Made by a program: the position numbers and the translations under genes. The notes below the pieces were generated by a model, which saw only the letters and a list, made by a program, of their open reading frames with translations, had not been told where the DNA came from and did no database searches. A stretch of 64,000 nucleotides of DNA from Tetracentron sinense (taxonomy: Eukaryota; Streptophyta; Magnoliopsida; Trochodendrales; Trochodendraceae): the NCBI GenBank assembly GCA_015143295.1, contig CM026571.1, forward strand, positions 33,756,505 through 33,820,504, in the 5' to 3' direction. The first letter of the stretch is position 1. Each line of letters begins with the position of its first letter. Shown here one piece after another: positions 2,357 to 62,799 of this stretch.

Positions 2357-4700
2357 TAATGACCCGCATTAAATGTACTTGTCTTCATGATTTTATGAGT
2401 TAATTTCCTAGATAAATGTGCTTAAATTTATACGTCAATCCTAGGAGAAATCAATGTATTAAAAACCTTGATTAAGAAAACTCATTTAATTCATTCAATT
2501 TAGCGAATTTTTAGAAATAAATTGCATGAATTAAAAGAGGAAGAAAAAGTAGCAAAAGACTTTAAAAAATAATAATAAATAAATAAATAATTGGAGATTG
2601 GTGCTACCGATCGATCGCCCAACGCGGGATTTGCCGTGTTGACGCGATTTTTCAACCTTTTTAACTCTCTGGGGTCTTCAAACTCTATAAATAGTCCTCC
2701 AACTCGAGAATTAGGGTTCTTATATGCTTCTAAACCTAAAAAAGAAAAAATTGAGAGTTTTCTAAGAGATCAAAAAGGGGAAAACTGAAGGAGTTCAAAA
2801 ATTAGAACAGAAAAATGAGAAAAGAGGCTTGGAGATCGATATAGAACCCTATTCGCAAGCGATAGATCATAGGGAAGCGATCATGGGAGGTAAATAACAA
2901 CCCTAGTCTTCAATATTTTGAATATTAACCTAAAAGATGGATTGAAATGAGTAAACCTAAGTAAGAACTTGAAAGTATGTAGGATGTGAAGAACCATGAT
3001 TTGATTCTTGTCTTATTATTTATAGATTTGCTAAAATAGGATGTGAAGAACCATGATTTGATTCCTGTCTTATTATTTATGGATTTGCTAAAATAGGATG
3101 TGAAGAACCATAATTTGATTCCTATCTTATTATTTATGGATTTGTTAAAAATATAATGTGAAGAACCATGATTTGATTTCCATCTTATTATTCATGGATT
3201 TGTTGAAATAGGATGTGAAGAACCATATTTTTATTCTTATCTTATTATTTATGGATTTGTTAAAATAGGATGTAAATGATATGTTAAAATTATTTGTGAT
3301 TTAATGAAGTGCTGGGAAATTTTATTGAAGTGTGTGGATGATTAAGTAGAATGAATGGAATTGAATGGATGAATTATGGGATTTCAACCGTATGTGAGTT
3401 TGATTTTGTCTTTATAATTCATGAAAATTCTGATTGATGAAAGGTGTTATAATTAGGATATTGATCTAGATTTAAACAAAAAGAGGATTTTGATATTTAC
3501 ATTAAATCGAGATTATGTGTGCTTTGATATAAACTGTGATTTTTACATTGTCAAATCATGGGAAATATGATAGTTTATGTGTTTTTTTTATGTTCCTTAT
3601 ACATGATATACATTTGGGTAAAGGAGCCTTTGAGGAAAGTCAAGCTTGCCTAGGCCTGGTTAACATAGTGGAATGGGACGCTATGGTGAGATATCCTATG
3701 GCCCCTGACGGTTACTCTTATGTGTAATTTAAACGAAAGGTGTATCATTGAGCACTCAAGAATGAAAAAGATGCATAATGATTGAGAAAGAATCTAAGAC
3801 ACTAAGAAAAGTATAAGTAAGACCTAAGATAAAGTAAGTAAGAAAGTAAAACATACAAAAGCGATAATATATGTATATGTTGTGCACCACCTGATACCAT
3901 CAAAGGGCGAGGAGTATGCCAAAGTAAGTAAGCCGTCGTATCGGGAAATGTACTAAGTTGTCTGTGCCGGGTAATGTACGAAGGGTGGTATCTCGGTAAA
4001 ATAAAGTATAGTAACCCCTTTCCTTATACGTTAAAGCGGTATTTTAAGTTATTACTAATGCATATGAATGGATTGTTCCTTAAATGATAAAGTATGAATT
4101 AAGAAAGTAAGAAAAGTAAGAAAGTGAGAAAGTAAGAAAAGAAAGAAATTGACGTAATGTATTTGGTTGTTTTCCGCACTCTAATTATGTAAGTGAACTG
4201 ATGTATGAATCTGTAAGCTACATGAAATTTAATATTCATTATATTGTCCACTATGGTCTGTTATATACGCGGAGTAACTTGTTACTCAGCCGATGACTTT
4301 TGTTTTCAGCAGGTTCAGGTTTTGATATTTGTGCGCCCGGACCGTGGGAAGAAGAGGAATATTTCGAGGAACCGGAAGGTGATTATCCCGAAGAATAACG
4401 GGATCTTGATCGTTGGCCCTACTGTTGAACTTAATTTAATTGTGGTCAAATTTCAGGGAGACTTTAATTGACCTTATGGATATTTATGTTTAGTTTAGTT
4501 TCTTGATGATCATGATGGATCATCAGGATTTATTATATTTCAGTTGCAGTCAATGATTATGAATTTAAATTGATGTTTTAATTGAAGAAATTTTTCGGTT
4601 CATATTTTAGTATGTCTTAAATGCTTTAATAAGATGGTTTGTTAAGTAAGTCACATGTCAAAATCTTACATTCTCCTAGGTGGGGTTTTGGGGCGCGACA
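2357..4700 (+). mobile_element. Solo LTR A (gypsy-like family)
   Basis: This 2.3-kb unit ends in GGGGCGCGACA, exactly like LTRs ending at 55228 and 62799. Its start (TAATGACCCG) looks like the usual TGTAGAGACCC with the first bases lost. GAGAG flanks both ends. Internal landmarks match the two relatives in order: a palindrome CGATCGATCG at 2608-2617, a TATA box TATAAATA at 2686-2693, a CGCAAGCGATAGATC block near 2855, and GTTACTCAGCCGATGAC at 4281-4297. No internal retrotransposon sequence adjoins it, so it is a solo LTR. It lies between two LINE remnants. Placement in Ty3/gypsy (Tekay/Del-like) is inferred from length and ends only. Confidence 0.8.
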
Positions 4701-6830: not shown

Positions 6831-6944
6831 GTAACGCTACGCAGTACGCTGCACGCAACTACGCATCTCTACTCAATATATTGTATGTATAAGTTCATTG
6901 GTATATATATTATGTTTATACTATACTGTACGTCCATTGCAAAA

Positions 6945-7748: not shown

Positions 7749-8456
7749 TGAAGCAGGAAATTCTGGGAAGGACTCACGTCAGCAGCTGCTACAGGTACTC
7801 TGGTTTACTGGTAGAAGGTTGGTATTGAAGGGTGTATTACCCTGACTTTACTCCAATGTCAAAGTAAGTAGGTGTAGAAGATGATGAACAGCAAATAATA
7901 GAGAAATAGCTGAAATTTTTCGGTCCCTATGCATTGGGTTTCTTGGGGTATTTATAGGTTTTAGCCGAATGCTCATGGATGGTCATAGATGCCCATGCCA
8001 CGTGCTCCACACTCATTACCAAATATGTCAGACAGATCTGTCACCTTACGTATCACACGTGGGAGCTTACTATTAGTTTAGTCGATTTGTTTTTTACAGC
8101 ATGCAGAAGTGACCAGCATTAAATGTCAAGACAGTGTTTTCCACCTACTGTCAGAATAAAATGATCCCCTCCTGACCACTTCCTCCTGCGAGTCGGTCCC
8201 GTTGTTGACTCAAGCTCGGGTCCGTTTGATATGCGTTAAAACGAGGTTCGATGCGCTTATCTTGAAGACAACGGATACATTGTGCATAAGACAACGAGTA
8301 CGTTGTCGAGAGTACAACAGGAACGTTATACATCAGACAACGGATCATTCCTTCATTTTAATCACATGATCCACGTGTCACTCATCGGTGAGCATAACAA
8401 AGAAAACTAGCTCATTCTCCAACACTTAATCAATTTTATGAATTTTATCATTTACA
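7749..8456 (-). repeat. Tat1 3' LTR (708 bp)
   Basis: In plus coordinates it runs TGAAGCAGGAAATTC ... TTTATCATTTACA; in element orientation TGTAAATGAT ... CTGCTTCA. It aligns throughout with 18207-18965. On the minus strand it keeps a TATA box (CTATAAATACC, about 7948-7957). ACAACGG/CCGTTGT motifs lie at 8199, 8268 and 8337, two of them in the stretch of partial repeats ACAACGNNNACGTTGT near 8268-8345. The host duplication AAAAG precedes it. Confidence 0.95.
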
Positions 8457-13400: not shown

Positions 13401-13463
13401 AAGACCCCCGAAAGATTTCTTGTATAACTCTCCTTGCACCAAGATATATCGTGGTGCCTTGTA

Positions 13464-14090: not shown

Positions 14091-14125
14091 ATGAAGATCT
14101 GGATTTACTTCTACTTCAGCTTCTT

Positions 14126-18206: not shown

Positions 18207-18965
18207 TGAAGCGGGAAATTCTGGGAAGGACACGCGTCAGCAGCTGCTATAGGTACTCTGGTTTACTGATAGAAGGTTGGCATTGAAGGTTGTATTACCC
18301 TGACCTGTACTCCAATGCCAAAGTAAGTAGGCGTGGAAGATGATGAACAGTAAGAAGCACAGAAGCAAATAATAGAGAAATAGCTGCAATTTTTCGATCT
18401 CTATGCACTGGGTTTCTCGGGGTTTAGCCGGATGCCCATGGATGGCCATAGATGCCCATGCCACGTGCTCCACACTCATTGCCAAATATGTCAGACGGAT
18501 CTGCCACCTTATGTGTCACACGTGGGAGCCTACTATTAGTTCAGTCGGTTTGTTTTTGACAGCAAACAGAAGTGACCAGCATTAAATGTCAAGATAGTGC
18601 TTTTCACTTACTGTCAGAATAGAATGATCGCCTCCTGACCACTTCCTTCTGCAAGTTAGTCTTGTTGTTGACTCAAGCTCAGGTCCGTTGTATATGCGTT
18701 AAAATGAGGTTCGATGCGCTTATCTTGAAGACAACGGATACATTGTGCATAAGACAACGGGAACGTTGTCGAGAATACAATGAGTACGTTGTGCATAAGG
18801 CAACAGGTACGTTGTCGAGAGTACAACGGGAACGTTATACATCTGACAATGGATCATTCCTCTATTTTAATCACGTGATCCACGTGTCACTCATCGGTGA
18901 GCATAACAAAGAAAACTAGCTCATTCTCCAACACTTAATCAATTTCACGAATTTTATCCTTTACA
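18207..18965 (-). repeat. Tat1 5' LTR (759 bp), TATA box deleted
   Basis: It aligns along its length with 7749-8456 and ends TTTATCCTTTACA, followed by the duplicated AAAAG. Differences: an extra block of about 45 bp in the ACAACG/CGTTGT stretch (18731-18840), an extra AGTAAGAAGCACAGA near 18350, and loss of about 12 bp where the other LTR has GTATTTATAGG, so its minus-strand TATA box is missing (about 18417-18424). This is the LTR that would drive gag-pol. Confidence 0.93.
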
Positions 18966-20341
18966 AAAAGTATTTTTTTGGTTTAAAGATGAAATTTCAT
19001 TCATTAACAGAAGGTAAAAGATGAGTAAACTCCATTCCTGGATTAGGAAAAGTGGGGAAAAGCACTCCATTTTGGTGAGTAAAAGACCATAAACTCTCTT
19101 TGAGGGTCAATGGGCTGTGAAATTGGCTCCACAATAGATGTTGCTGAAGGTGACTGCTTCAAAGTGATCTTGGAGTCTCAAGATGTCGTCTATGAAGGAT
19201 CAAATTTCCCAGTGAAGATGTCTTATTTTTGTACCTCAGCCCCCATCTGTAAGTTATACTTTTAAAAATAAAACCTTTCAAAACGGACTAACATTAAAAT
19301 AGGCAAAGCCTTCCTATTTGCTCTCCGACTTTTTTTTCTCTTTTCTCTACCATGTTTCATCTCCTTTCTCTCTCTTTCGTTCTTCTTAAAGAGAACCCGG
19401 TTTGGGTTGACGGTAAATAGAAGGAATTTCTATCGGTAATCAAAATCCCAAGGGTAATTTTTGTTTCCTTTTTTCTTTTGTCTGTTTCTTCTTCTTTTTT
19501 TCTATCTTATTTTATGTCATTTTAGGGTTTCAAGAGGTCTCTATTAATGGAGTTCTAGAGGGAGAGTTATTTGAGGAGAGAAAAATATAGTATTTTGCTA
19601 GCATATTATTGCTTACCTAACCGCCATACATCTCCTTTAAACATATATCGTCAATGTTCAAAACTTAATCCTATTAAACTCGGGAATCAAAACATAACTT
19701 TGGAATTTGTGGTGTTATATGTCATTCCATAATCCACAGATGCATGATTTTGTAGTTTAATTCTATCTACTTGTTTGGGTACATTAAAAGGGCTTTGTGG
19801 TGTTATGTCATTCCATATGCTCATTTGTGTAAATTTGGGCTTGGTTTTTTCCCTTTATTTTTTTCATTTTCTTTTTGATAAGTTAACTTCTTATGTTTAC
19901 ACCTGGAGTTGTTTTTGGTAGTATTTGTGGTGAATGAATATGTAGGATCTTCCATTCTATAAAAGTTGAGAGTGAGATTATTCCAAACTCTAATCTCTAT
20001 AATAAAATAGAGGTTTTTCATCTAGTTTGTGGGGAGAAGATCATTTAGAGAGACTTTAAGGCAACTAGGCTTGTAAAAATTTATGGTGAATGATTTGGGG
20101 ATGGGTGGTGATGGGTTGGACGATGAGTTGTTGTTGCCACCCAGGACAGCATTGTTCAATTACTTTTTAAAGTTAATATTAGTGAAATATAGGAAAACTA
20201 ATATGGTTCATAGTTTGGTAATTTTAGTATGTACTAGATGTTTATATATTGAAACAAAATTGTAATTGATTAGTTTTAAATACTTTCATTCATTTTGTTT
20301 TGATTAATAAGTTGCATGTCTCTTTCTACAATATTTATCTT
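18966..20341. other. No gene seen; possible 5' region of the FRS pseudogene
   Basis: It starts with the AAAAG duplication. 19300-19560 is CT-rich and contains TTTAGGGTTTC, reminiscent of a plant leader. TTATATAG just before 20359 could be a splice acceptor for the following FAR1-like fragment. I recognise no protein domain. Confidence 0.4.
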
Positions 20342-23696: not shown

Positions 23697-24039
23697 TTGT
23701 AGGGTGGTCCACCACTCTGCGACAGGTCAGCCCAAAAGGCAGACCTATGTCCACTTCTGGGCCTAGCCGAACAGGCGATCCTAAATCCCAACAGCCTGTA
23801 TGTGGGATGCCGTAAAGGCTAACCTAAGGACTTACTGGTTATAAGCACCCTCAGTCCAAGCTGGTTGTGGGAACTCCCCCTTTAAAAAATCTATCAAAGA
23901 GGGGAGATACTGCCTAATTTTCACCAGGGTAAAAAGACAAGGCCAAGAGCCTCAAGGGCTTAATGAACAATTTGTCAAATAGTGTTCTTAAAAAATACAA
24001 AGAAAATGAGGAAGATGCCCCAAGGCATTCACCCGTGAA

Positions 24040-24859: not shown

Positions 24860-27800
24860 TGTAACAACCTAAAATCCTCCTCGGAGTTAGGTGAGACTTT
24901 AGACATGACTGTCATAACCTGGCAAACCATCCTGCAAAATATAGAAGGCATACTATAGCGGGAACGAAATTAATGCGGAAATGTGAACAACAATTTCTCT
25001 TCTATACATGAATAGTATTTCAAGTTCTTATACATAACATGACTAAGTTTAAAGGTGGACAGACCCACCTATCAAAATACAAAAGACAACTCTCACTCTC
25101 TCCCTCTCAATAGTCGCCCTGATAAGGCCAACTATCTAAGTTCCTGGCCTCCACCTGAGGCTCTCCTGTTGGCTCTATATGAGGCTCCTCCTCACCGTAG
25201 TCTTCCTCAACCCAAGGACCAGGAGCACAGATATCAAATAGTGTACCTGCCGACATCAAAATGTAGGGCTGAGTATTGAAACACTCAGCAAGTACAAGCT
25301 ACTAGCAAACAATTATATAATATAATTCATGGCATACAGGAATTTAAACAATGCATTCATGACCATGCATAAAAACCAAAAGCAAAATCTTATGTAAATC
25401 ATGTGTGCAAAGTTCATAGCTTGTACTTGAAATTATCTTTTTGTAATTTATAAAACTTGCTTGTTGTGCTTAAAATCTTATTCTTGTCTTGTTCTTGTCT
25501 TGTGAAAATCATGTTTGTCTTGTCGTGCTTGTCTTGTCATGCTTGTCTTGTGAGCCAGATGTTAGTACCCTTGTAGCGACTTGTGAGCCTGGTATGTAAA
25601 TACCCTTCATCGAAATTCTTGAAAGCAACTTGTGAGTTGGGTATGTAAATACCCTTCAACGAAATAGAAAAAGGCACACTAACATCCTTGATTTCTTGTA
25701 TTGTTTTCTTGAAGCCGGATATGACATATCCTTGGATATGCCCTATCCTTGATCGACCCAAAGTTCGACTTTATCATTTGTCTCATAAATCACTTGTCTT
25801 GTTCTTTGGTAGTTTTTCATATACTTATACGTAGAAAACTCAGTCATGCATACATGCTTGTGCATAGTGCTTGGTGGACATCATATTGACATGAAGATAC
25901 TTAAATGAATAACATATGACATTTCAAGCATTTCTATAGATACGGGAGATCTTTAAAGGGAACATATATAGGCATCATAGCAATGTGACATTTGTGGAAG
26001 AAATGTTAAGGTATCTTAATACTCATGAAGAACTTAAATTATGGAATCATGGCAATGGGCATTACATATTTGACATGCATCGCATAGATCATGGTTACTT
26101 AGCTTATTACATTCATATCATACTTTATATTCCATACATTTTTTGTGAAATCATGGTAGATTTAGGAAATTGAAAACATATGTACCCAACTAAACATTTT
26201 AAGCTTAAAAACCTAGGTTTGGGATCTAGGTTATCACTAAGTTAACTAGAAGGGTGTACTTACAATATCTATTCAAAATCACCCATAGAATCTTACTTTT
26301 CAATATTTGTATCATAGTAAAGCTAGGTAGTAATAGTACTTACATTCTTTCAAGATCAATCCTAGATTGAAGAAGCCCTTAGCAAGAAATCCAAACTTGA
26401 TGGAGAAGATTCAACTTTGAGAATGAAGATCCTTGTTTGTAGAAGATGATCCAAGCCTTGGAAGTCAAGATTTGAGCTCCACTTGATCTCCAACAAAAAC
26501 CCCTCTTTGGTATCCTACTCTTCTCTCTTTTTCTCCTAAAATATCTCTTAGGATTTGTGTTAGTTTAAAACCCTAGAAATCTCTATTTATAGCCCAAGGG
26601 GGGTAAAACCCTAAAAATCCCGAATTTAGGGCTGTTTTGTGACTTTACTGTGCATAACCGTCTGAATAGTCTTTTGATCATTCGAACAGTTGAGGAACTG
26701 TCTTCAATTTCTTTTTTTTTATTCATCATTCACCGGCATCGTTCGAACGGTCATGGGAACCGTTCGAACGGTTGCTTCAGTTTCCTCCTATTTTTCCTAT
26801 TTTTTCTTTTTTTTCCTCATTGGCTTAAACCTCAACACTTTTTAAACATTACCATGGGTCCTTAGGTGTAGAGACCTGAATCTTTTTCATCCTTTTACAC
26901 AAGTATTAAGGGTATTTTAGTCTTTATCATGTTTTAATGTATGTGTATTTATATCTAATTAGTGTGGTGTGATCTAGGTTTAATCAAAGTTGTAAAGAGA
27001 TGGAGGCCTTAACACACCCTGAACTTTAGGAACCTCTAATTTTGTTACCGTTTATCAGAATTAAGTGATTCTTGAATCATTAGAAAGGTATTGGAACTCT
27101 CTTCAAGATTTATATTTAATGTTTTTCCAGATTTTGAGTCTAAGCTAAGTCAAAAGTAAGTTTTCCAGTGTTTTTTCTACTGAAATTACAGACTAGTCAG
27201 CTTTAAAGCCTATTTAGACCCTTAAAACCTTAAAATTAAGATTTTTGTAAAACACCAAAGTTGTTCTCCTTTTAAAGACGAGTCTAACGTAAGTTGAATC
27301 GTGAAAATTTGATGAACGAGTCAAAAGTTATGGTCAAAATACTAAAATGCGATTTTCTAGACTCCTCATCAGATTTTTGACGATCGATCGTCACAAGCTG
27401 ACGATCGATCATCCGGAGCCCAGAAAATTGATTTAGCCTTGAGAATTTGGACTATCAATCATCCATATTGACGATCGATCGTCAAGATACGACCCTGTTT
27501 ATTAAAAGACGCAGATTTTAGGGTTTTTAACCCTTGGGGCTATAAATATGGGTCCTATTTCGAGGTTTTAGACTACTCTACCCATTTCTAACCTAATTTG
27601 GCAAGGAAAGAGAGAGAACCTAGGGTTTTAAGAGAGTTTTGGCTTGATAAGAAGATTTTTGCTTAAAGAGGAAGGTAAATTAGCTTGGAGATCTTCCTCA
27701 AAGCTTCTTAAGAGCGATTTGGATCTAAGGGAATGATCCCTAAGGTCGATATACTATCCAAATCAACTCTATTATAATGTTTTGTGAATGTTAATATGAT

Positions 27801-33315: not shown

Positions 33316-35447
33316 TGTTGGCTTATTCTGGTGTCAAAACAAGTAAGTGTAGGTGTCTAGGTGTGTATCTTGTATCATTGCCTTCAAGCATCCATGACAA
33401 GTGAAGTTGAAGACCGAAGAAGATTGGTTGAAGACTCATTTCCTTCGTTTCACTCATAGGATGGTAAGTGACCTAGATACCATGTTACCATAGGTGGGAA
33501 TTGACTTAGAATAAACCTAACATGATACCAAACCGAGTTGGCTTGAAAGTTCGGCTCGGTTCAGCTTGATCAAGCCAAGCTTGAGCAGATATTTCAGGCT
33601 CGATCGAGCCGAGCCGAGCTTGAAGCTGAGCTCAAAATTTTAAACAAGCCGAGCTCGAGCCCTCCCCTGTTTGATTCGGCTCGGCTTGAAGTTCAGCTCG
33701 TACAAGCTTGATTCAGTTCAAAAATCGGCTCGGCTTGGTATTTATTATATATGTGTTTAAATTTATAATATATATTTTATAATTTTTGAAGTCCGTAGAC
33801 ACTTTTCCTCGTAAAAAGTAAAATATTAAATTATATTGTATAAAATTTTGAGTCGACAATCAATACCTAAACTATATTTAATAAAATTTCAAGTCCACAT
33901 CGCACTTTTCTAAAATGGTCCTTTGTCTCCGGTAGTGACTCCCTACTGTTCTCCGATGGGTTAATCCTCATCAACGCTTGACTCTCACCTCCAATGGTCC
34001 TTCCTCTTCGGCAGTAGCTCCTAACTATTCTCCGGTAAGTCCTTCCTCATCAACACCTGCTTATCTCAGCCTACAAGATTCAGTTCTCTGAAATTCCTGT
34101 CTGGGTTTGGTTGTATGAACTTTCGTTTTTATGAGAAGGTGATGGTAAAATTCATTTGAATGTAGCAAGCCGAGATCAAGCTAAGCCAAGCTCGGCTCGA
34201 GCTCGAATCAGTTCAAGCTCAAGCCGAGCTCAAGCTTGGTAATCTACGTTCAAGCCGAGCTTCGAGCCTAGTTATTTGAGTTTGATTCGAGCTCGGGCTG
34301 AGCCGAGCCTAGTCTAAACACCTTCAAGCCGAGCTCGATCTTGACTAAGCTCAGCTCAGCTCAGCTCGAATACACCCCTAGTGTTGAGATATGTAGCGCT
34401 AAACAAGTTTACAATCCTGAAATTTCTCAAAAAACTAAGGTTGCTTGTAGGTGGCATATCTCCCAAACCGTAGCTCAGATTTTGCTCCATAATATAACAA
34501 ATCGACCGTGTCAAAAAGAGCTACAACTTTCATAAAAGGTGCAAGAGCTAAAAATGATTTTTTAACTCTCAGTCGACTGAAACAACTCCCAGGGTTGACC
34601 CTGATATGGATTTTCTTGTTAAATCCGATTTTTGGCAGTTTCTAATACTTGGGGTTGCTTCCCTATTTATGGTGAACCCTTCTGGTTTGTGGGTTGCATG
34701 TTTGGGGGAGTATAGAGAGTGTTTTTTACTATCACTAGAGTTTATAAAAACTCTTATTTTCATTGTCTCTCCTCCCCTTTGTTAATCTTTCTCCCATCCT
34801 AGATTTTGCTAGTCATTGCATCAATCTTGCTTGCTTGGACTTTTCCATTGAAGGAGTCCATCTAAGAATTGATTCTTATCAAACCATCAACCCGTTTTGG
34901 ATAGAACAACTTGGTCGGAGGGTTCTGGAGCCTTTGCGAAGGAGATCGATCTGAGACAGATCGTGGTAGTGTGATTTGGTCGGTGGAATCCGAAGCCGTC
35001 ATTGACGGAGATTGATCGGAAGGTTGTAGATTGTTTTCGAGACATAAAGAGAAGTACAAACAGCTGCGGTTAATCATGTGACTTGAGAGTACGTGATGAC
35101 TTTTCCAAGTGTGGAGGATTAAGAACTGAAGGATCATAGTGTCGAGTCCGAAGGAGTCAAGTTCGAGTCTTGTAAGTTCTTGTTAACTTTGTCTTAGTGG
35201 ATTCTCATGGCTGGACTAGGTCCCCTGGTTTTTCCTAAAAGGGTTTCCACGTAAAAATCCTCGTGTTATGGTTTGCATGTTTCTCTCTATTTCCGCACTT
35301 AAAGTACATCATCCCTTAAGTTAATAACTTAATTGTTTAAATATTAAAAATTGTAGATAGACTTATAGGGAAGCCTAACCATCCCCTTAAACTTGTGAGA
35401 TTCTCAACTCGAACCCTAGATTTGAGGTTCACCGAAATTTTTTCACA
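33316..35447 (+). mobile_element. Solo LTR G (copia-like)
   Basis: TGTTGGCTTATTCTGG at 33316 interrupts the Tat2 protease. The host frame resumes with KTRFGDIS near 35475. The right half has copia-type R/U5 features: GGACTAGGTCCCCTGG, TTTCCACGTAAAAATCC and TTTCTCTCTATTTCCGCACT. The right border (TTTTTTCACA, about 35447) is approximate; flanks TTATG and AAATG match only in part. A palindrome CAGTCGACTG (34570-34579) and AGGGTTGACCCT (34591-34602) lie 60-95 bp before a TATTTATG box. A GCTCG-rich block (33530-34380) sits inside. Confidence 0.65.
33530..34380. repeat. GCTCG-rich block, possible non-autonomous DNA transposon
   Basis: Two zones dense in CGAGC and CGGCTCG in both orientations (33550-33745 and 34160-34380) flank about 400 bp of ordinary AT-rich sequence. 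The right edge reads GCTCGAATACACCCCTA, whose complement TAGGGGTGTATTCGAGC resembles a hAT terminal repeat. No matching left terminus or 8-bp duplication was found, so element borders are unproven. Dense subterminal motifs are typical of hAT ends. Confidence 0.45.
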
Positions 35448-38142: not shown

Positions 38143-39704
38143 TGGACCCTAGAGGGGGGTGATTAGGGTCAATGGCAAAATAAAATTTCTGCCTTAGTCT
38201 ATTTTACGGAATTAAAGAATTTAAGGCAAATGCAATAAACAATAATTAACAAGAAGAATAGAGATAGAGATAAGGAGTGAAAACACTAAGGCTTTGTTCA
38301 CAAGGTTTGACAACTTGTCTACATCCCCGCCTTTCAGCTTTCTGTTTTAAGGATTCCCACGATTTTACTCGCACAAGCTTCTTCACTGGGTGAAGCTCAA
38401 ACCTCTACAATCCTTTGCAGGCTAGGATACCACCTTTACAATCCCTTCCAGGCTAGGATACCACATTTACAATCTCCTTTCATAGGTTGAGATCACGACC
38501 TTCAATGCAAGAGAGCACCCTCTCTTGACTTCACAAAGCTATCCCGCTTCACAGACAAGAATCCATGATTCTTGATTTCTTTCAATACAAAGTGTGATTG
38601 GATTTGAATCCAAATACAAAGGTTCCTTGATGAGCTGAATAAGATTAGAATACGCAACCTAAAAGTCTCTCAAAAGATTGGGAGTTGAATGCTCAAATAC
38701 AAGAGATTGAGATTTCTAGGTTTTCAATGTATGATTTTGATGAGAGTTGAAAGCAACTAAGGATTTGATCAATAATGATTCAAGAGTTGTTCAAAGATTG
38801 TTTGATGTTCATAAATGAAATCAATTTATAGTTGAGCATTCAATCTAGCCATTGGGAACTCATTAATTGCGAAAATGGCCATTGAAAACTAGCCATTATA
38901 AGTGTTCCAGCAGGTTTCCGTCGACGGATGAGATTCTCATCCTTTGAACTGTCGATAGTTCATGGGACAGAAAGTTTAAAAACTTTCTGTAACCTAAACT
39001 ATTGACGGTTGGTCATTCCTCTGGCTCAGCCGTCGACGATTCATGGATGATTTTCCCATAAACCTCTGTTTTCAAAGACCAATATGATGAGAGTGATTTC
39101 CTAGGTCTTTTGACAATCCTTAGTCATGATTTTAACTATATTGTAAGATATCTTGGGGCCTTAGAATATTTTCCAATAATTCTTAGGTTCCTAAGGTCAA
39201 TCTAGGCACTTTGAGCATTTCAACTTTCCAAGCATTTGAAGACTTTTTACATAAGTCCTAGACTCTTCAAAGTAATAAAAAATAATTTTTAAACCCTCGT
39301 GAGAGTATTGATTCTTTTTATTTTGATCTTGAATGATTTTCACTTTGACTTCATGATCCGACTTGGACTTTAGGTGAGAACTTCAATCTTCATTGAATCT
39401 TCAATTTTGGCTTCAACTTTAAAATGATTAGTTCTTCACTTTTGATATGATCTTGAATTCTTCAATGTGATCTTAGAATTTGAGTCTTGAATTCGATTTG
39501 GAGTTTGATGGCTTTTTCTTGATGGATCATTTTTGACATGTGATCTCCTTTCTTTGCTTCATACCTTGAATGTTGGGCTAATGTTCTTACAATCTGAATT
39601 TTACATAAACTTCATAGAACCATTAGTACCAAAGTGATCATTTCATTATTATGTTATAATCAAAATTAATAAAGGTAGATAGTGTTGTAACCTTTAGGCT
39701 AACA
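38143..39704 (-). repeat. 3' LTR (H) of a truncated copia element
   Basis: On plus coordinates it runs TGGACCCTAGAGGGGG ... CTTTAGGCTAACA. On the minus strand the sequence just outside its start is CAAAAAGGGGGAGAT, a classic polypurine tract, so this is the 3' LTR with internal sequence to the right. The TATA box on the minus strand is CTATAAATT (38823-38831). Palindromes CCGTCGACGG (38918-38927), AACTGTCGATAGTT (38947-38960) and CGTCGACG (39031-39038) lie upstream of it. The left flank is the Tat2 RNase H. There is no second LTR in the window. Confidence 0.75.
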
Positions 39705-41030
39705 ATCTCCCCCTTTTTGATAATGACATACTAATGTAATGAAATGGGAATAAGCTCCCCCTCAATATATGTTTTTAATAAAAAAATTTGAGGTGGCTCC
39801 CCGTAAACATATGCATTCATATAAATTTTGCATTTTCAAGTAATATGCATAGTTTAGAACATTCACTTCCAAATTCAAAGAGATTCAAAGAACATCTTCA
39901 ATGTCTATTTAAGATACCAAGAAAAATTGAAGTTTCATTCATATCAATCAAAAGTATTAGCATTTACATGTGATCAATGTCAAGTCATGTCAAATGCACA
40001 AAAAGTATATCAACAAGATAAGTCTCATTCTTATTTAAAACAATCAAAGTATGACTTGCTTGTCACTTGTATACAAGAAAGTATAACGAGAGACATTTCA
40101 TATAGTCTAAAATTGACAAAGAGTACAAGCCATTTATAAAGAAATTCATTTCATTCATAACTGGAATTCCAATGGAAATATATTCATTTGAGCTTTTTAA
40201 TTCGTATTTCCATAATTATATTTCATTTCATCAAAAAGAGTACTCAAATAGAGTACAAGGGAATGTGGAATATAATTATTTCATTACATTCTCTCCCCCT
40301 TGGCATCATAAAAAAAATGTAAACATTAAAGCACACAAAAAAATTATATTGATCTTTTTCTTCTCTCTTTCTCTTTGCCTTGAGTGACATTTTTGACATA
40401 GTTTCTTTTCTCTTTCCTTTGGGGTCACTAGGAGAGGTATCATCCAAGATGACCGGCTCCTTGGATCTCTGCTGAGTATCGACCTGGGGTCTCTCTGAAG
40501 CTTGAATATCCACTGGGATTGGAATGTGAGATATCTTGACCTTCAAGTCCGTCAAGTCAATAGTTGCCCGAGTCACTGTAGTGGCTGTCTAATGGATGAT
40601 CGAAGCCTGAGTACCCAGTAAGGATGACATCTTATAGATGAAAGAACCTGAAGCCTTGACATCATCACTGATGTTGGAGATATCAGCTTCCATCTTCTCA
40701 CCTTGCTCTAAGGCATCTATGACCTTCCTCTCAATAAGAGTGAGAATAGAATCTGCTCTAGTCTTCATGACATCGCCAGCAACCCCAATATCCTCTAAGC
40801 GAGTCTCCACTATCTTAGCTCTAGCTCTCAGCTCAGTCTGAATGCCATCAATTCTTATCTCGAGAGATGAAAGTCTATCTCTAGTCTCATACTGGAAGCT
40901 CATCATACTGTCTCAGATGGCAGATTGGCTCAACATACTCTCCAAGCTAGAGCCAATGGAGGCTATCTAGCACATCAGGAGGCTCATATGATCTGCACTC
41001 ATCTCTTGTCTCCTAAGGGACTCAAAGAAT
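39705..41030 (-). mobile_element. Internal 3' fragment of the copia element with LTR H
   Basis: On the minus strand it holds two open stretches: 40589-40906 (coiled-coil-like, SSLEIRIDGIQTELRARAK) and 40244-40576 (ending in a Lys/Arg-rich KGKRKETMSKMSLKAKRK). A second PPT-like TATGATGCCAAGGGGGAGA lies at 40291-40310. These resemble the extra 3' ORF of SIRE-type copia elements, but I cannot name the protein. All of pol and the 5' LTR are missing. The right edge joins Tat2 integrase directly at about 41031. Confidence 0.5.
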
Positions 41031-42348: not shown

Positions 42349-44528
42349 TATCGCGACCCGAAATCCTTCGTAGGAGTTAGGAGAGACTTTAGACGTGACT
42401 ATCCTAACGTGGTAAACCATCCTGCAAAATATACAAGACATAACATATCGGAAGCGTAAATCAAAGTGCGGAAACCTGAACCCAAAAATTTCTTTTCTAT
42501 ACACGATCTGTATTCCAAGTTTGTACAATACATAAACCAAAACAAAAGTGGACATGCTCACTCATCAAAATACAGAAGAAGTCTCTCCCTCTCACTCACT
42601 TTCAATAATGCCTAGGATAAGACCACCTATCTAAGTTCCTACCCTCCTTTGGATAAGCCTCTGTCGAGTCCTCCTCATCGTAGTCCTCCTCGACCCATGG
42701 TCTGGGCACAAATATCGAAGCTCTGAACTGCCGATAGAACATGTACGATTGAGCATGGAATACTCAGCATCTGCCTACTACTAGCTAACAATGTTATAAT
42801 GTCAATAATATCATGTGCGCATTGAAGATAACAATTCATAATTCATGCATTGAACCAAATATAGAAATCATACTTCAAGACTTAACTTTGAGGTGCATAG
42901 CTTTAAAACTTCATTTTTAGAACTTTCGTAGGAAACAAAACATGTCTTATTCTTGCGTGTCTTATGAGAATTAGAGTTCTTGTGAGAATCAGGGTCCGTC
43001 TAAGTCTTAGCTTGTGAGTTTCATTGTGATCTTAGAGTTCTTATGAGTCTTATGAGCACTTTATGAGACTCCTTATGAGCCTTAAGAGCACTTGTGAAAT
43101 TTTTTATGAGACTTCCTTTCAAGATTCTTGTGAGCAAGGGGTTAGTACCCTGTAAAACCTGGGCTACCAACCTCCTTGACAATCCACCAAATTTATGAAA
43201 ATTTCTTAGAGCAAGAGGTTAGTACCCGTAAAACCCTGGGCTACCAACCTCCTTGACAATCCACAAAACTTATGAAAATTTCTTAGAGTAAGAGGTTAGT
43301 ACCCATAAAACCCTGGGCTATCAACCTCCTTGACAATCCACCAAATTTGAGAATTTCTTAGAGCTTAGCTTATGAGCAAGATGTTAGTACCCGAACTACC
43401 TTGAGCTACCAACATCCTTGACCAACCTTGTTTGGAGTGATTAATGCATATGAGATGATGTTTGTTGTTTCTTATGAGTTCCCTTATGAGTATTAAACTT
43501 TCGAGTACTTACGAGAAAACTGACAATACAATAATCTTACTTATTAGGAAAACAATCATACGAGGCATGTGCGTACATAATAGACTTGTGAGCATCATGA
43601 AAATCTTAGAGAAACGTTAAACATGAGACAAGAGTACAACATTTCATCTAAAGCAATTATGAAGGCATCCAACATCCATACATCTAGTAAAATCATTTAA
43701 ACAAGCTTTTCAAGAGGGTTTATACAAAATCATAAGCCCATTGTCTTAATACCATAGCAAAATTATGACAAAGCTAGGTAGTAGGGTATCTCTACCTTTG
43801 AGATTGGAGAAACTCTTGAGAAGAATTGAGAATGTGAGATCCAAGCTCCAAGGAAAGATCCAAGCTTGAAGAAGGAATCCAAGCTCCACCTTGATCACCC
43901 AAGATCCCTTGGTGAAAACCCTAGCCTTCCCCTTTCTTCCTCTCTAAATTCTCCTCTTAGAACTCTCTTGGGTTGCCTTAAGGGTTTATGAAACCCTAAC
44001 CACGAATTGGGGGCATTTATAGTAAAATGGGTGGTCAAAAGACCATCCTATCCTTAATGAAATGGTTCAATAGACCAAATTGGGCAAAACTTCGGGTGCC
44101 CAATCGATCAGCTAGGAGGGGCGGTTGACCATCCATGGGAAAAACCTTACTATTTAGCCAATTTTGGGCATTTCCTTTATAGTCGGTTAACCGGCCTTGA
44201 GGGGCGATCGATCAGCCCTGTACAACCAACTCACTGTTAGCTTGTTTTGAGCCTTTTCATGACAGTCGGTCGACTGGCCTTGAGGGGCGGTCGACCGGCC
44301 TTTGCAAATTTTGGTCATTTCTCTTGTTTTTTTTCCCATTTGTCACACGTAGAGTGATTCCACTCTTGTTTCTTGGCTTAACACCCATATATATATATTT
44401 GGTTTCAAATTGTTTTATTTAATCATCACACAAAATACATAGAAGACCTTTAGGCCAAAATCACTATTCATTGACACTATTCACATACACTAATCACCAA
44501 ATAGGAAATTGTGTTCCGGGGTTCTATA
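42349..44528 (-). mobile_element. Solo LTR F
   Basis: On plus coordinates TATCGCGACCCGAAATCC ... TGTTCCGGGGTTCTATA, both terminal TG/CA now TA. Flanks CTACC (42344-42348) and CTGCC (44529-44533) match 4 of 5, and joining them restores the host repeat GGAAACTACC-TATTCGCTC. Length 2180 bp, alignable with solo LTR E. Minus-strand TATA is at 44015-44022. Upstream (44100-44300) lie several palindromes, including GGTCGACC near 44289, GGTCGACT near 44269 and CGGTTAACCG near 44184. An internal threefold repeat (GGTTAGTACCC ... CCTGGGCTACCAACCTC) lies at 43140-43430. Confidence 0.85.
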
Positions 44529-52997: not shown

Positions 52998-55228
52998 TGT
53001 AGAGCCCCGAATTTATTATTCTTAATACTTGTGAAGTTTATTAAATGTTATGGAAACATGTGTTTAATTTTAATGTGTTTAAGCTTGCAAATTTAATGTT
53101 AAAAAGTGTTGATTTTAAAACCCAAATAAAACACTCAATTTAAGTCGTTTTTGAGGTTTAATTGCATGAAAAGGGAGATAATCAAAAAGTAGCAAAAGAG
53201 TTTTAAAAAAAAAAAATCGGCCCCGGCGATCGATCGCCATCGGTGGGCAATCGATCGCCCAAAACGCCGTTCCGGTGGTGGTTTGCACGATCTCGCGTGT
53301 TTTGAGTCCCTAGGGCTCTCAATGTTATAAATACCCCCTTATACTCGTGGGTTGAGGGTTTCTAAAGCTTTCTAAACCTAAAAGAGAGTGAGAAGAGGAT
53401 TTTGAGAGATCCAAGAGGAAGGATCAAAGGTTTTGCAAGGAAGAAGGGTGAAAAAGCTTAGATCAATCCCATTCGTAAGCGCGTGATCGTAGGGAAGCAA
53501 TCAGGAGAGGTAAATATAACTTCCTTACTATCAATATAGTGATTTTGATATGAACATTATGAAAGTGATAGATCTAAAGCAAGAACAATCAAGATTAAGC
53601 ATGATTAGGATGTTTCAATCCTTTATGAAAAATACATATGATGTTAGAGAATGTTTTGAACCATGATTCCCTTATGAAAAATATATATGATGTTAGAGAA
53701 TGTTTCGAATCATGATTTTCTCATGAAAAAATACATGTGATGATTTGATAGTATTTTAAATTATAATTCTCTTGTGGAAAATATACCTGATGTTTAGAGA
53801 GTATTTTAAGTGATGGTTTTCTTATGGAAAAATATATATGATGACTAGAAAATGTTCTAAATTATGATTTTATTATGAAAGATGAATGTGATGTTTAAAG
53901 ATGTTTCTATGATTTTTATTTCTCATATCAACAAGGGAAAGAAAATTATCTTGTAGTGTGTGGATGATGGAGAATGGAGGAAGGGATGATGGTTGAAATT
54001 GATGAAACAATTATGAGCTTGCCTTGAAATTTTGATGTGTTATGAAACTAGGGTTTGGTGAGATTAATTTTATTAAAATTATCTATTGAAAATTAGGCAT
54101 GATAGATATAATTGTTTCTTATTTTATTATCGAAAACTTGATAAATTTATATTTCATAGTGATTATGAGAATTTCTGCATGTTAAAATTAGTGCATGATC
54201 GACAATTATCATTATTGCACTCATACTGATTCACGAAATTAAATATGAATAAGCATGAGAATAAACAAGATGACAAGTATTATGCAAGTACACAAGGACA
54301 CGAGCATGATGTATGATTGAGTTTTGCACTGACCGAGTACCTACAAGCCTAAGATCAAGGCAAGACCAGCCGTATACACCGGCGAATGTGTAGACAAGCC
54401 GTATACACCGGATAATGTGTAGACAAGCCGTATACACCGGATAATGTGTAGACAAGCCGTATGCACTGGATAATGTGTAAACCGTGTGGTACCTCGGAAA
54501 GTAGGGTATATGTTAATCTCTACCCAATATATGGGGTAGAGTTATATTAAGTTATTGCATTTGCATGTTGTTGGATACATTCACGAACAAAAAAAATAAC
54601 TAAGATAAACAAGAGAAACAAGTACAAGTGATCATGTGCAAGAATTGAAATTGAATTATGTTTCCGCACTCTGAATTGTTATATGTTTACATGCCATGTT
54701 AAATTTTAAATTATGTTTATATTAAATGTCGTTATATTGTTAGATAGGATTTTATATATATGTGGGATAACTTGTTACTCAGCCGATGACTGTTGTTGTC
54801 GGCAGGTTCTAGATTTGACATCTGTGCTCCAGGACCTTGGGAAGAAGAAGAGTACAAGGAGGAAGAGGAAGAGCCAACAGCTGATTACCCCGAGGGTGAA
54901 TGGAATTTGGACCGTTGGCCATATACTGGAAATTAGATTACTAGTATTTTGAGTTCGAGTTTTAGACATTGTAATAGACTTAATTCTAGATTTATAGTTA
55001 GATTGAATTAATGATTTGGATCATGTAGGATGATTTGAATTAATTTTGATGTTTTAGTATTTATTTCAAATATTAGACTTGATCAGTATTTATTTAAAGA
55101 GAAATTTTTTTTCAGGTTCATGTTTTAGAATTACCTTAAATGCTTTATGATAGGAAGTTATGGAAGTTAATGGTTAAGTCACATGCCAAAGTCTTACATT
55201 AAGTTAGGTGGGATCTTGGGGCGCGACA
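52998..55228 (+). mobile_element. Solo LTR D
   Basis: TGTAGAGCCCCGAATT ... CTTGGGGCGCGACA, 2231 bp, flanked by TAAAG at 52993-52997 and 55229-55233, interrupts the protease frame of copia element 2. Palindromes GGCGATCGATCGCC (53225-53238) and GGGCAATCGATCGCCC (53245-53260) lie before the TATA box at 53326-53333. A 29-bp tandem repeat (GCCGTATACACCGGATAATG) runs four times at 54369-54480. GTTACTCAGCCGATGAC is at 54774-54790. It is closest to LTRs A and C. Confidence 0.92.
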
Positions 55229-55684: not shown

Positions 55685-57179
55685 CAAAGTTCGTAATATC
55701 GAAAATATCGGCGATATATCGCCGATATTTTTCGGTATCGGTGAAGACCGATGCATTGACACCCTGTTTAAAAAAAATACACAATATCGATTGGTATCGC
55801 CGATATATCTCCGATATCGGCGATATATCGACGAAACCATACCGATATTGACCAAAAAAAAAGGAAGTTGAGAGTTCAAACTCTGAATATCTTTGATTTA
55901 GTAGAAAAAAAAAGGGGGGGTTGATTTAGAAGAAAGAAGAAGGAAGAAGAAGGAGGAAGAAGGAAGAAGAGGCCAGAGGGTACCTGAGCCAGTCCACTGT
56001 TGCCGTCCACCGTCGCTGTCACTGTCGCCGTCGCCATTGCCAAACGCCCAAACCCAAGCTAAGGTTCCTCCTTGCCCCTTGGCTCCTCTCTGCGCTTTTT
56101 TTTTTTTGGTTATGTTCTGTGATCTGAAGTCTTATGATTGAATTGGATAAGCTTGAAACCCTTATAAGGGTTTGCTAAGTTCACTCACTCCTACTTAAAA
56201 CTTAAAACCCTTGTAAGGGTTTGCTAAGTTCACTCACTCCTAGTTAAAACTTAAAAACCTTATAAGGGTTTGCTAACTTCACTCCTACGTAAAACTTAAA
56301 ACCCTTTTCAGGGTTATCTAACTTCACTCTTACTTTTATTTTTTATTTTTTTAAGGGCTTTAACTTTTAAGTAAGATTATATTAATGCTTTTTTTATTTT
56401 ATTTTATGATAATGCATTTTTTTCTATGAAACTAGCATTATCTTATAAACCCTTATAAGGGTTATTTAATTGTTAATGCATTTTTTTTTGTAAAAAAGTT
56501 ATCATGTTAATGTTAGGTATTTTAACCTAAAATTTTAAAGGTAATGCTAGTTTCACACTTTCACTCTCTTTATAAATTATATGGAGGCTTTAATTAAAAA
56601 AAAAAATTCACTATATTGAAATATAACAAAAAAATAATAATTTCTTGATAAAGATGTATCTCTAGCAAATTATGCCCATAAGACCATTTTAGTAATATTA
56701 AAAAATTAATAATTTCTTAATAAATTTTTATAAATTAAAAATAATTTATATGTAATATCTCTAACCTTATAAGGGCTTTTTAAAAATATAATAACACCTT
56801 GACTAATCAGTAATCACTTAACTATTCTTTTTAATACAAAAATTTAACATACTTTCTCTAATCAGTAATCACTTTGATTAATAAGTTAACATACTTTTTA
56901 GTACAAAAATTTATAAGTTAATATACTATTTTTATTACATAATCTTCTCATTGCATCTTTTATATATATTGTTGTTTTTTTTAATGTTTTTATTCTAAAA
57001 TGTGTATTAACATCTATTTTAACATTTTCTGAAGTTTCACTACAAAATTCCATGTTTTGCCCAATTTTTTGCCATTTTTTCCAATAGTCACCGATAAACG
57101 ATATATCTTCCGATATAACTCCGATATATCTTTTTTCTGCGGCTCGACATGTCGACCGATATCGACATTTAAAACTTTG
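55685..57179. mobile_element. Non-autonomous hAT element, 1495 bp
   Basis: GTAATAGC is repeated exactly at 55677-55684 and 57180-57187, an 8-bp duplication typical of hAT, and removal restores the copia frame (YSYSNSKCTTPF). Ends are CAAAGTT and, inverted, CAAAGTT. Both subterminal zones are crowded with palindromes such as CGATATATCG, TCGGCGATATATCGCCGA and CCGATATCGG, likely transposase-binding sites. Inside lie a GAAGAAGGA tract, a GC-rich CCGTCGCTGTC stretch (55995-56040) that could be captured exon-like DNA, and a 49-bp tandem repeat (TTTGCTAAGTTCACTCACTC) at 56150-56330. No transposase is encoded. Confidence 0.88.
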
Positions 57180-60130: not shown

Positions 60131-62799
60131 TGTAGAGACCCAAAATTTAGTTTCTTGACATTCGTGCCATTTATATGAATTTCTTGAAATATGTGTCCGA
60201 TTTTAAATGCATGCATTCCTAAAAGATGAATTAAAAGGGATGCCTTAACATCCCTTAACTTCAAGAAGCTCTAGTTTTGTCACCGTTGATCGGAATCGAA
60301 TGATTCTTGAACCATTAGGAAGGTATGGAAACCTTCTTCGAGGTTCATGTTTATAATTTTTCCAGATTCTTAGTCAAAGATAGGCTAAATATTGGATTTC
60401 CAAAATTGGGCCTTCTGAAAATTTGTGCTGCTGAAATCCATTCCAAACCAGTTAGCTTTATAGCCCATTTAGGTAATTAAAAACTTAAAATTGGGACTTG
60501 TTTATTAGATATAAAATTGTTCCCCTTTGAATGACGAGTCCAACGCAAGTTGAATCGTCAAATTCCAATAACCGAGTCAAAAGTTACGGCCAAAATACCA
60601 AAAATAGTTCCGAGTAAAAAAAAAAGAAAAACAAAAATGTGAGGGTGACTGATCGCCCACCACTGGCGATCGATTGCCCAGTACAGGAAATTTTTCCGAG
60701 AAACGCGATTTTCAACCTTTTCTACCTTCCCTAGGGTTCTCAACTTTATAAATACCTCCTTAACTCGTGAATTAGGTTTCCTAGAGCCTCATAAACATAA
60801 AAGTGAGAGAGAAGAGAGTATTTTGAGAGATCCAAAGAGGAAAAAGCCTAGAGATTTCAAGGATTCAACAAAAGAAGAAGGAAAGAGACTTGAGGATCTA
60901 GTTCGAGCCCCATTCGCAAGCGATAGATCTTAGGGAAGCGATTAAGTGAGGTAAATAACTTTCCCTAGTTCTCAATTTTATAACTATTAATCTAAAGTAT
61001 GAATCTAATGATAAGATCTATGTAAAGAACATGATTAATAGTAAGATAAATGGATTTGATTATCTCTCATGCAATATTTTTATGAATAACGTAAATATGA
61101 ATTTCTTTCTAACAATATGATGATTATTAATATAAATAAGAATAAATAGTTTGGATTTAAAGTAAGAAAACAAGATCAAAGCATGTTATATTATGTACAT
61201 CCCTTATTAAACATGTTCATGATTTTTAGAGATGTTTTATTTATGATTTTTATGATGTATATCAACAAGGGGAAAGAGAATGAAAATTGTGGTGTATGTA
61301 TGGATTGAGAATGAAGGAAGTGATGAAATTATGGAGTTGAATGTAATGTATGAAATAATTGAATGATGGATATAAATTATTTGTGAGATTAGGGTTACAT
61401 GTTAGTGTGTTTTGTGGATATAATCTATGAGAATTATGATTGATAAATTATGTAGTGTAATTATGATATTGATCTCGATTAAAAAGGGTGTTGTTGATAT
61501 TTAAATTAAATTGTGAATTATGTATGTAGAAAATAAACTGTGGTTAAAGCCTATTAAATGATTGGGAACATGAATGTTGCTGTGTGTTTATTTTATGTTT
61601 TCATACGTGATATATTGTTGGGTAAAGGAACCTTTGATGAGAGTCAAGCTTGCCTAGGCTTGGTTAACATAATGGAATGGGACGCTATGGTGAGATGTCC
61701 TATGGCCCTTGACTGATAGTCTTAGGTATAATTTAACCAAGAGTATATTACCGTGCACTCACTCAAGATAATGAATATGTAAAAACATGATAAAAAGTAA
61801 GATTACAAGTATTATACAAGTACACACGAAAGCGATGAATGCATGATTGAGTTTTGCATTGACCAAGTATCCACAAGCCTAAGATCAAGGCAAGACAAGC
61901 CGTATACACCGGATAATGTGTAGACAAGCCATATACACCGGATAATGTGTAGACAAGCCGTATGCACCGAATAATGTATAAATCGTGTGGTACCTCGGAA
62001 AGTAGGGTATATGTTACTCTCTACCCAATATATGGGGTAGAGTTATTTTAAGTTATTGCATAATGCATGTTGTTTGATTTATTCATGAAAAAGAAAGACA
62101 AGTCTGAAAAGTAAGATAAGAAAGACAAGTCAAGAAAAGTAAGATAAGAAAAAAAGTCAAGTAATAAGACAAGCAAGATAAGTAAGATAAGCACAAGTGA
62201 ACACATGAAAGAATTGAAAAGAAAATTTGTTCCGCACTCTGATTTATGTATGTGAATTGTAATTGAACTGTTACTTGTATACATGTTATAGTTATGATAT
62301 TGTTTACTATGGATTATTATATACGTGGAGTAACTGGTTACTCAGCCGATGACTATTGTTGTCGGCAGGTTCGAGATTTGATAATTATACCTAGGAGCCA
62401 TGAGTTAAAGAGAAGTACATAAGGAAGATCTTGCAAGTGATCATCCCGTAGAGGAACGGGATTTCGATGGATGGTTTTACTATTATTTTAGTTTATTAGA
62501 AATTGTTTAAATTCCAGAGAGATTGTAATTAGTTTATTATGTTTTAGTCTTTAAATTGAGATACTTAGATTTGATAGGTTTAATTTAAGAGTTGAGAATC
62601 ACGAGGATGATTTAGATTATGTAGGTTCAGTTTAATTACAGATTTAAGTTGATATTCTGTTGAGGTATTAAATATTATTCCATTGAAGGAATTTTTAAGT
62701 TCAGATTTTGTATGCCTTTAAGGCTCATTAATTAGATTAAGTCAAGTAAGTCACATGCCAAAGTTTTCAATTCTCTAGGGGGGATTTTGGGGCGCGACA
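60131..62799 (+). mobile_element. Solo LTR C
   Basis: TGTAGAGACCCAAAA ... TTTTGGGGCGCGACA, 2669 bp, with TACCA at 60126-60130 and 62800-62804, interrupts the integrase of copia element 3. Landmarks: CTGGCGATCGATTGCCCAG (near 60663), TATAAATA (60747-60754), CGCAAGCGATAGATC (about 60916), a 29-bp tandem repeat of the GCCGTATACACCGGATAATG type (three copies, 61893-61980), and GTTACTCAGCCGATGAC (62337-62353). Its orientation is opposite to the element it hit. Confidence 0.93.

Follow-up and report, generated by a model that had tools for sequence, protein, structure and literature searches.

What are the short palindromes that stand before the TATA boxes of eight LTRs (A to H) in the 64,000-base stretch of DNA analysed here (the window), and how has their symmetry outlasted their letters? 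The boxes were located at the predicted places or a few bases off them, and LTRs E, F and H, correcting the original prediction, lie on the minus strand. Counted in the LTRs only, there are 1 box in A, 4 in B, 2 in C, 2 in D, 4 in E, 6 in F, 2 in G and 3 in H, and their quality is given here as complementary arm pairs out of seven. On the plus strand, LTR A carries its single box at 2606..2619 (TATA box at 2686; 5/7), and LTR B, with its TATA box at 27541, carries a distal pair at 27379..27413 (centres 27385 and 27406, 21 bp apart; 7 and 6 of 7) and a proximal pair at 27450..27483, in which a decayed box at 27456 is set 20 bp from a perfect one at 27476 (4 and 7 of 7). The pair of LTR C (60644..60678; TATA box at 60747) joins a decayed box at 60650 to one at 60671, 21 bp away (4 and 6 of 7), that of LTR D (53225..53259; TATA box at 53326) has centres at 53231 and 53252, again 21 bp apart (7 and 6 of 7), and that of LTR G (34568..34603; variant TATA box at 34664) has centres at 34574 and 34596, 22 bp apart (6 and 6 of 7). 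On the minus strand, LTR E (TATA box at 26591) has a decayed proximal pair at 26657..26690 (26663 and 26683, 20 bp), the weakest of all with 3 and 4 of 7, and a distal pair at 26738..26772 (26744 and 26765, 21 bp; 6 and 7 of 7). LTR F (TATA box at 44021) has three pairs, each spaced by 21 bp: a decayed proximal one at 44099..44133 (44105 and 44126; 4 and 4 of 7), a middle one at 44182..44216 (44188, GGTTAACC, and 44209, GATCGATC; 6 and 5 of 7) and a distal one at 44265..44299 (44271, and 44292, CGGTCGACCG; 5 and 6 of 7). LTR H (TATA box at 38830) has two boxes at 38916..38960 (38922 and 38953, 31 bp apart; 6 and 6 of 7) and a third at 39028..39041 (centre 39034; 5/7). No such boxes occur in the LTR pair 7749-8457/18207-18966 or in the LTR-like promoter at 22.7 kb, and both show CACGTG-type sites.

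The palindrome signal upstream of LTR TATA boxes is above chance. When all TCGA sites were taken without a symmetry filter and their first four arm pairs scored, 56 of 84 pairs were complementary around the 21 TCGA of the promoter stretches (-300 to -40 of ten LTR or LTR-like TATA boxes), compared with 168 of 656 around the 164 TCGA elsewhere in the window (Mann-Whitney p = 1.9e-8), and none of these 164 had all four pairs complementary. The predicted excess over shuffled sequence is likewise present: the window has 12 TCGA-centred perfect palindromes of at least 10 bp, where 100 local dinucleotide shuffles give 3.15 ± 1.69 (maximum 8), and 15 TCGA sites with at least four of five arm pairs, where the shuffles give 2.83 ± 1.56 (maximum 7). 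Single named factors (W-box, MYB, as-1, heat shock and DRE) were also considered for the half-sites and rejected, as each resembles the half-sites of one family only. All half-sites together are explained by no single factor.

The boxes hold a narrow position. The centre of the nearest one stands at -73, -64, -75, -73, -72, -84, -67 and -92 from the TATA box in LTRs A to H, respectively (standard deviation 8.5), so that the predicted fixed distance takes the form of 64-92 bp in all eight. Against random placement p is 5e-5, and it is 0.005 when each of four groups is represented by a single LTR. The nearest box of E (-72) is a poor partner found by position, with 3/7 arm pairs, and taking the next E box (-92) leaves the range unchanged. 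Pairing at 10-30 bp had been predicted, and it can be sharpened to 20-22 bp from centre to centre (21 bp in seven pairs, 20 in two and 22 in one, with decayed partners among them), the exceptions being H, with 31 bp, and the unpaired A. Of 22 anchor sides, 5 have a partner at 21 bp, whereas no other distance in the range 14-40 bp accounts for more than 2, and neighbouring boxes of a pair are identical at 8-13 of 14 positions in six cases. Part of the spacing evidence comes from decayed partners in C, B, E and F, which keep 3-4 of 7 arm pairs. In a scan for paired palindromes without regard to core, 21 bp was not distinctive (9 pairs, vs 11 at 20 bp and 9 at 49 bp, with 8 each at 25, 35 and 60 bp), and the pairing is therefore based on the anchor boxes and on neighbour identity; the three best pairs of that scan (13/14) are all LTR boxes at 21 bp.

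The eight LTRs had been taken as unrelated, but A to F are linked by sequence as homologues and, on that ground, are one diverged LTR superfamily, in which pairing and position may consequently have been inherited once. They are read as solo LTRs with no adjoining internal region, and their ends are unlike those of H. LTR G is presumably copia-like by its motifs, and LTR H carries, to judge from its sequence, the non-coding marks of a Sirevirus; at most three lineages are therefore represented. Of the 29 listed ORFs, 20 were scanned against Pfam; the matches were to reverse transcriptase, RNase H and integrase and, below threshold, to gag, and none was assignable to A-F. The box-bearing LTRs in the window are old retrotransposon copies.

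We consider it somewhat probable that the boxes are promoter elements of the upstream (U3) region, each bound by a protein dimer, with two dimers lying next to each other. Each palindrome would be the site of one symmetric dimer, and the two dimers of a pair, spaced by 20-22 bp or two helical turns, would sit on one side of the helix at some 64-105 bp before the TATA box, where by binding together they might recruit transcription. The half-site letters would change by family with the dyad symmetry kept because the family of bound factors is diverse or changing. A promoter module read by a dimer had been proposed from the start, and it fits position, symmetry and covariation best, though its two companions, eight unrelated LTRs and novelty of kind, have fallen away.

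A different role, in which the boxes act as RNA, is unlikely but survives best among the alternatives. In transcripts that include U3 the palindromes would form hairpins, by folding or pairing, and so supply small RNAs for silencing, as has been proposed for the palindromes of maize Sireviruses; the boxes would be retained as a by-product or through the host. In PMC5311732 and PMC10760457, which cite Bousios 2016, maize Sirevirus palindromes are reported to be small-RNA hotspots with hairpin potential, situated like the boxes here in a palindrome-rich LTR regulatory region of variable sequence; for the present boxes the comparison extends to computed folding, and its evidence is mixed. Stretches of 260 bases fold above shuffles in A, B, F and H (sense/antisense z of -4.4/-2.1, -3.3/-5.1, -2.8/-3.4 and -4.9/-5.5), but less so in D (-1.1/-1.8), E (-1.8/-1.9) and G (-1.0/-1.3), with a mixed result in C (-3.0/-1.2). 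Complementarity within and between boxes is nearly equal, and so does not discriminate, in four of seven pairs (B, D, E and F distal). Three other pairs (F middle, F proximal and G) consist of unlike boxes, and there each box is symmetric in itself and not with its partner: between the boxes, 7, 5 and 6 of 14 positions are complementary (10, 7 and 8 with G-U), and the values within boxes are higher (12/10, 8/8 and 12/12). Moreover, an RNA role has no need of a fixed distance to the TATA box.

It has also to be considered whether the boxes are a private mark of each family, bound by a protein that the element itself or partner elements encode and that recognises no family but its own, such as an anti-silencing factor. 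VANC proteins are anti-silencing factors of this sort in VANDAL DNA transposons, and an architecture that is constant while half-site letters are family-specific would suit such a mark. It is nevertheless improbable, as the vicinity of the TATA box suits an ordinary activator equally and LTR F alone carries several different boxes; A-F being all solo LTRs, no candidate gene can be read from them.

Just as improbable is a single ancestral sequence whose simple decay produced all boxes, with symmetry inherited and not maintained. The kinship of A-F, the common TCGA core and the prevalence of transitions among broken pairs all agree with it: in 24 boxes, 31 of 37 broken arm pairs are one transition short of pairing, vs 222 of 625 at 167 other TCGA, which supports decay by transitions. 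Positions ±3 to ±5, however, hold several distinct intact pairs (the innermost arm pair being, for example, A-T, G-C or T-A), which decay could not produce, both-sided arm changes number 28 against 10.9 in shuffles, and G and H have yet other boxes. Covariation of arms between box sites scores 0.576 vs 0.232, a value reached in none of 500 shuffles, and together with the 56 of 84 complementary pairs it bears out the claim that the arms change and stay complementary. Least probable is that mutation, through template switching by which quasi-palindromes are corrected, creates and keeps symmetry without selection, for although such correction would make both-sided changes in one step, it leaves unexplained the narrow position, the pair spacing and the symmetry of TCGA before TATA boxes but not of the 164 elsewhere. 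Symmetry itself looks to be under selection, as had been surmised, from the covarying arms and from decay that leads away from perfect palindromes, and its retention despite family-specific letters suggests docking sites for paired proteins. Under the promoter reading, it would be chiefly by transitions that dead copies lose their boxes, in line with deamination of CpG.

Symmetric elements in retrotransposon promoters have precedents. The LTR of Tnt1 has in its U3 region a symmetric activator box, box I. Its symmetry is named in PMC2829016, and the boxes here are likened to it by description. The closest counterparts are the palindromic repeated motifs of Sirevirus LTRs, which lie upstream of the TATA box and differ by element (Bousios et al. 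2010, PMC2829016), so the claim that this type of box was undescribed has to be withdrawn. The two share short, dyad-symmetric, CpG-rich boxes upstream of the TATA box with element-specific letters and no single known factor, and the Vitis Sirevirus box CGGTCGACCG is identical to the LTR F box at 44288-44297. The Sirevirus motifs, in the same paper, occur in at least eight copies per element, mostly with a CGG-CCG signature, and in 13 Sireviruses only, and are given there as setting Sireviruses apart from the other copia elements in the comparison. The boxes here, in contrast, number 1-6 per LTR as counted in the LTRs, have a TCGA core and two-turn pairs, and lie mainly in LTRs without Sirevirus ends; the CGG-CCG signature occurs in F only (CGGTCGACCG and CGGTTAACCG), and is likewise missing from the Sirevirus Tnd-1. 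The LTR of ONSEN (PMC3907296) also has symmetric host-factor sites, its heat response elements, of the form nTTCnnGAAn in an LTR without CG, whereas the present boxes are CG-centred; the TTCGAA core of LTR E matches that pattern in form only. Sirevirus boxes before the TATA box and ONSEN host-factor sites thus offer a precedent for the promoter reading, under which the boxes may belong to one type of element with the Sirevirus motifs, occurring here as well in a superfamily whose ends are not those of Sireviruses. Neither this occurrence nor two-turn pairing was found in the open-access literature searched.

The Sirevirus marks of LTR H were compared with the description in PMC2829016. Beside the LTR, at 39703..39714 on the minus strand, is a Sirevirus-type polypurine tract with attachment site, AGGGGGAGATTG, in which the polypurine tract AGGGGGAG is followed by AT/TG at the 3' LTR. 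Three copies of AGGGGGAG lie closely upstream of the 3' LTR (39707, 39755 and 40293), and the window holds two others, at 23874 and 58953. An inverted repeat of 19/23 bases surrounds the tract, and its right arm begins 39 bp into the LTR; the Sirevirus repeat averages 28 bp (PMC2829016). A C-rich CACCCCCCTCTAGG at about 38161, near the approximate 3' end of the LTR, is a candidate for the Sirevirus integrase signal.

Tentatively, and with considerable doubt, we raise the possibility that different LTR superfamilies converge on two palindromic dimer sites, two turns apart and about 65-105 bp before the TATA box, whose half-sites would be rewritten by compensating double substitutions with phased symmetry kept, the driver being escape from silencing or a diversifying family of host factors. 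If general, TCGA-type palindromes paired about 21 bp apart before TATA would be a simple cross-family LTR promoter signature that tells which promoter letters matter, would make the evolution of retrotransposon promoter codes by compensating change under silencing pressure testable, and would extend a feature that PMC2829016 gives, for the copia elements it compares, as specific to Sireviruses.

Relatives were sought in sequence collections. A protein query with the reverse transcriptase of the window matched 25 stretches by pattern and gave no relatives, and two degenerate reverse transcriptase patterns, gypsy and copia, matched no stretch in viral_contigs, where a primer-site 14-mer matched at least 120 stretches, judged chance matches and used as a background set only. 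In genome_contigs the gypsy pattern matched 35 stretches, some of which are probably eukaryotic contamination, to go by titles and composition. Perfect 12-bp CG-centred palindromes were checked in the 25 of these with GC below 50%, the 10 of higher GC being left out, and occurred in two, one each: TCGA-centred in L129 (at 3806) and GCGC-centred in L151. Paired palindromes of any core number 23 in the window, 28 in 189,610 bases of the gypsy-pattern loci and 144 in 1,104,496 bases of the listed viral background loci.

Self-complementary sites centred on TCGA, referred to here as boxes, are present upstream of the TATA box in eight long terminal repeats (LTRs) of the window, A, B, C, D and G on the plus strand and E, F and H on the minus strand, as the original prediction held. 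The window is 64 kb with a GC content of 38.7% and, judged from its content, is made of nested remains of plant-type retrotransposons. The evidence is of one window, at most three lineages and dead copies, and because the eight LTRs had been chosen for their palindromes, the promoter set is not blind. Palindromes centred on TCGA and 10 bp or longer number 12, against 3.15 ± 1.69 in 100 local dinucleotide shuffles. With no symmetry filter, 56 of 84 arm pairs (the opposed bases flanking the core) are complementary at the 21 TCGA lying -300 to -40 from ten TATA boxes, versus 168 of 656 at 164 TCGA elsewhere (p 1.9e-8); these ten comprise A–H, with G trimmed at its presumed LTR start, the LTR-pair member at 7956 (minus strand) and an LTR-like promoter at 22683, which adds zero TCGA. 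When right arms were swapped among the 19 A–H sites, 34.0 ± 3.5 of 76 pairs were complementary, and none of 20,000 swaps reached the observed 54.

The boxes also keep a narrow distance from the TATA box. Counted from the first T of TATA to the centre of the nearest box, this distance is -73 in A, -64 in B, -75 in C, -73 in D, -72 in E, -84 in F, -67 in G and -92 in H, with a standard deviation of 8.5. Tested against random placement, this narrowness has p 5e-5, or p 0.005 when each of four groups is represented by a single LTR. The value for E belongs to a poor partner box located by position (3/7 arm pairs), and using -92 instead keeps the range the same; the TATA of G is the variant CTATTTATGG.

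The eight LTRs had been regarded as unrelated, which fails for A–F. Alignments A-C, A-D, C-D, B-C and E-F extend over hundreds of bases at 67–79% identity, and shorter ones of 61–79 bases join A-E (E value 1.5e-5), B-E (5e-5) and D-E (1e-12). A profile of the A, C and D TATA regions matched F at 3.8e-7 and did not find B or E. The 3' end is GGGGCGCGACA in A, C and D, TTACA in B and E, and near GGGTCGCGA in F; the start is TGTAGA in C, D and E and altered in F and A. By eye, 5-bp target-site duplications flank C (TACCA), D (TAAAG) and E (TGTTA), A has a GAGAG that lies within a GA repeat, and B is nested in E; A–F, gypsy-like according to the original prediction, are read as solo LTRs. H bears three non-coding Sirevirus marks (polypurine tract/attachment site, its repeated copies and inverted repeat) and perhaps a fourth, a C-rich integrase signal. 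G is presumably copia-like, judging by its motifs.

The arms were described as changing between copies while staying complementary, and the covariation check agreed, giving 0.576 against 0.232 ± 0.040 (0/500 shuffles). The paired share is 73.1% against 52.4 ± 3.2, and cells changed on both sides number 28 against 10.9 ± 2.7 (each 0/500); all these measures, from 19 sites of which 18 are distinct, are inflated by kinship among sites. Across the same 19 sites, neither pair columns with both-sided change (5 vs 4.7) nor further pair types (14 vs 12.9) exceeded shuffles. The 24 boxes hold 37 broken arm pairs, 31 of them one transition from a pair, whereas the 167 other TCGA give 222 of 625 (Fisher p 6e-9). 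Restricted to positions 3–7 of the arms, the count for the boxes is 24 of 30 (p 1.5e-6). The boxes thus look formerly perfect and now decaying by transitions, in line with methylated-CpG loss in dead copies. Observed/expected CpG, partly raised by the boxes themselves, is 1.2–1.7 in the promoter stretches of A–D, 1.0 in E and 0.64–0.76 in F–H, with 0.95 in the 7.95-kb LTR, 0 in the 22.7-kb promoter and 0.55 in the whole window.

Moreover, the boxes tend to be paired. Around 11 anchor boxes (22 sides), neighbours with at least 5/7 arm pairs, sought at centre-to-centre distances of 14 to 40, number five at 21 bp and at most two at any other distance. Identity of anchor and neighbour at 21 bp is, of 14, 13 in B, 10 in C, 13 in D, 13 in E, and 12 and 8 in F, and at 20 bp it is 11/14 in B. 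For a random 14-mer, the probability of 10 or more matches is 0.0003. Including decayed partners, a spacing of 21 bp is seen in seven pairs (one each in B, C, D and E, and three in F), 20 bp in one pair each of B and E, and 22 bp in the pair of G, the exceptions being H, at 31, and A, with no pair. Weak boxes, with 3–4/7 arm pairs, number one each in B and C and two each in E and F. In a scan of palindrome pairs with any core, 21 bp was not distinctive. Within F (44105–44299) the pair recurs three times at a step of 83 bp, and GGTCGACC, GATCGATC and GGTTAACC boxes lie within the three 83-bp repeats, so that differing half-sites coexist in one promoter. Two turns of B-DNA span 21 bp, which places paired boxes on the same face.

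Each box, being a dyad, would most likely be the site of a protein dimer, and paired dimers would most likely bind cooperatively at an upstream promoter element, as suggested by the narrow TATA distance and two-turn phasing; binding, factor and effect are all inferred. Alternatively, the boxes may have a small-RNA role, as proposed for the palindromes of maize Sireviruses by Bousios et al. 2016, according to PMC5311732 and PMC10760457. This reading is still viable given the mixed folding: in A, B, C, F and H, one or both strands fold more strongly as RNA than shuffles do, and in D, E and G folding is close to ordinary. As to an RNA stem between boxes, seven pairs were tested, and the two boxes differ in three. 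Box-internal complementarity there is 12/10 of 14 against 7 between boxes (10 with G-U) in F middle, 8/8 against 5 (7) in F proximal and 12/12 against 6 (8) in G, which favours protein dimers; in B, D, E and F distal the two counts lie so close together that they favour neither reading. Chance is excluded in three ways, by the shuffles, the unfiltered TCGA comparison and the arm swaps.

No description of such sites had been known to the original prediction, but the kind of element is in print: Bousios et al. 2010 (PMC2829016) describe palindromic repeated motifs in 13 Sireviruses, located in the LTR upstream of TATA, CpG-rich, with element-specific letters and no common factor identified, and report them absent from the other Ty1/copia elements compared. 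The Vitis Sirevirus motif given there is identical to one F box, whereas Sirevirus motifs have at least 8 copies and mostly a CGG-CCG signature, and most boxes here have neither. To this the window adds boxes in G and in a superfamily of long LTRs that lack Sirevirus ends, together with the pair spacing and measured covariation; searches of an open-access library returned no description of these.

Other palindromic elements were also observed. The LTR pair 7749–8457/18207–18966 (minus strand, 83% identical) encloses remains of reverse transcriptase, RNase H and integrase and has CACGTG sites before TATA in place of TCGA boxes; the 18207–18966 copy is without the CTATAAATAC of the other. Tandem repeats of ~68 bp at 21976–22350, two of which hold the G-box-type palindrome GACACGTGTC, precede CTATAAAAGG at 22682 by some 330–700 bp; this LTR-like promoter has a palindromic core other than TCGA. 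A hAT-like non-coding DNA transposon at 55685–57179, with, by eye, ends CAAAGTT...AACTTTG and an 8-bp duplication GTAATAGC, carries AACCCTTATAAGGGTT repeats and subterminal palindromes of CGATATATCG type, among them a perfect one of 30 bp (55702–55731). In addition, one perfect TCGA-centred palindrome, CCATGTCGACATGG, occurs at 3806 of L129, a contig of a Trichormus-titled assembly matching a gypsy reverse transcriptase pattern.
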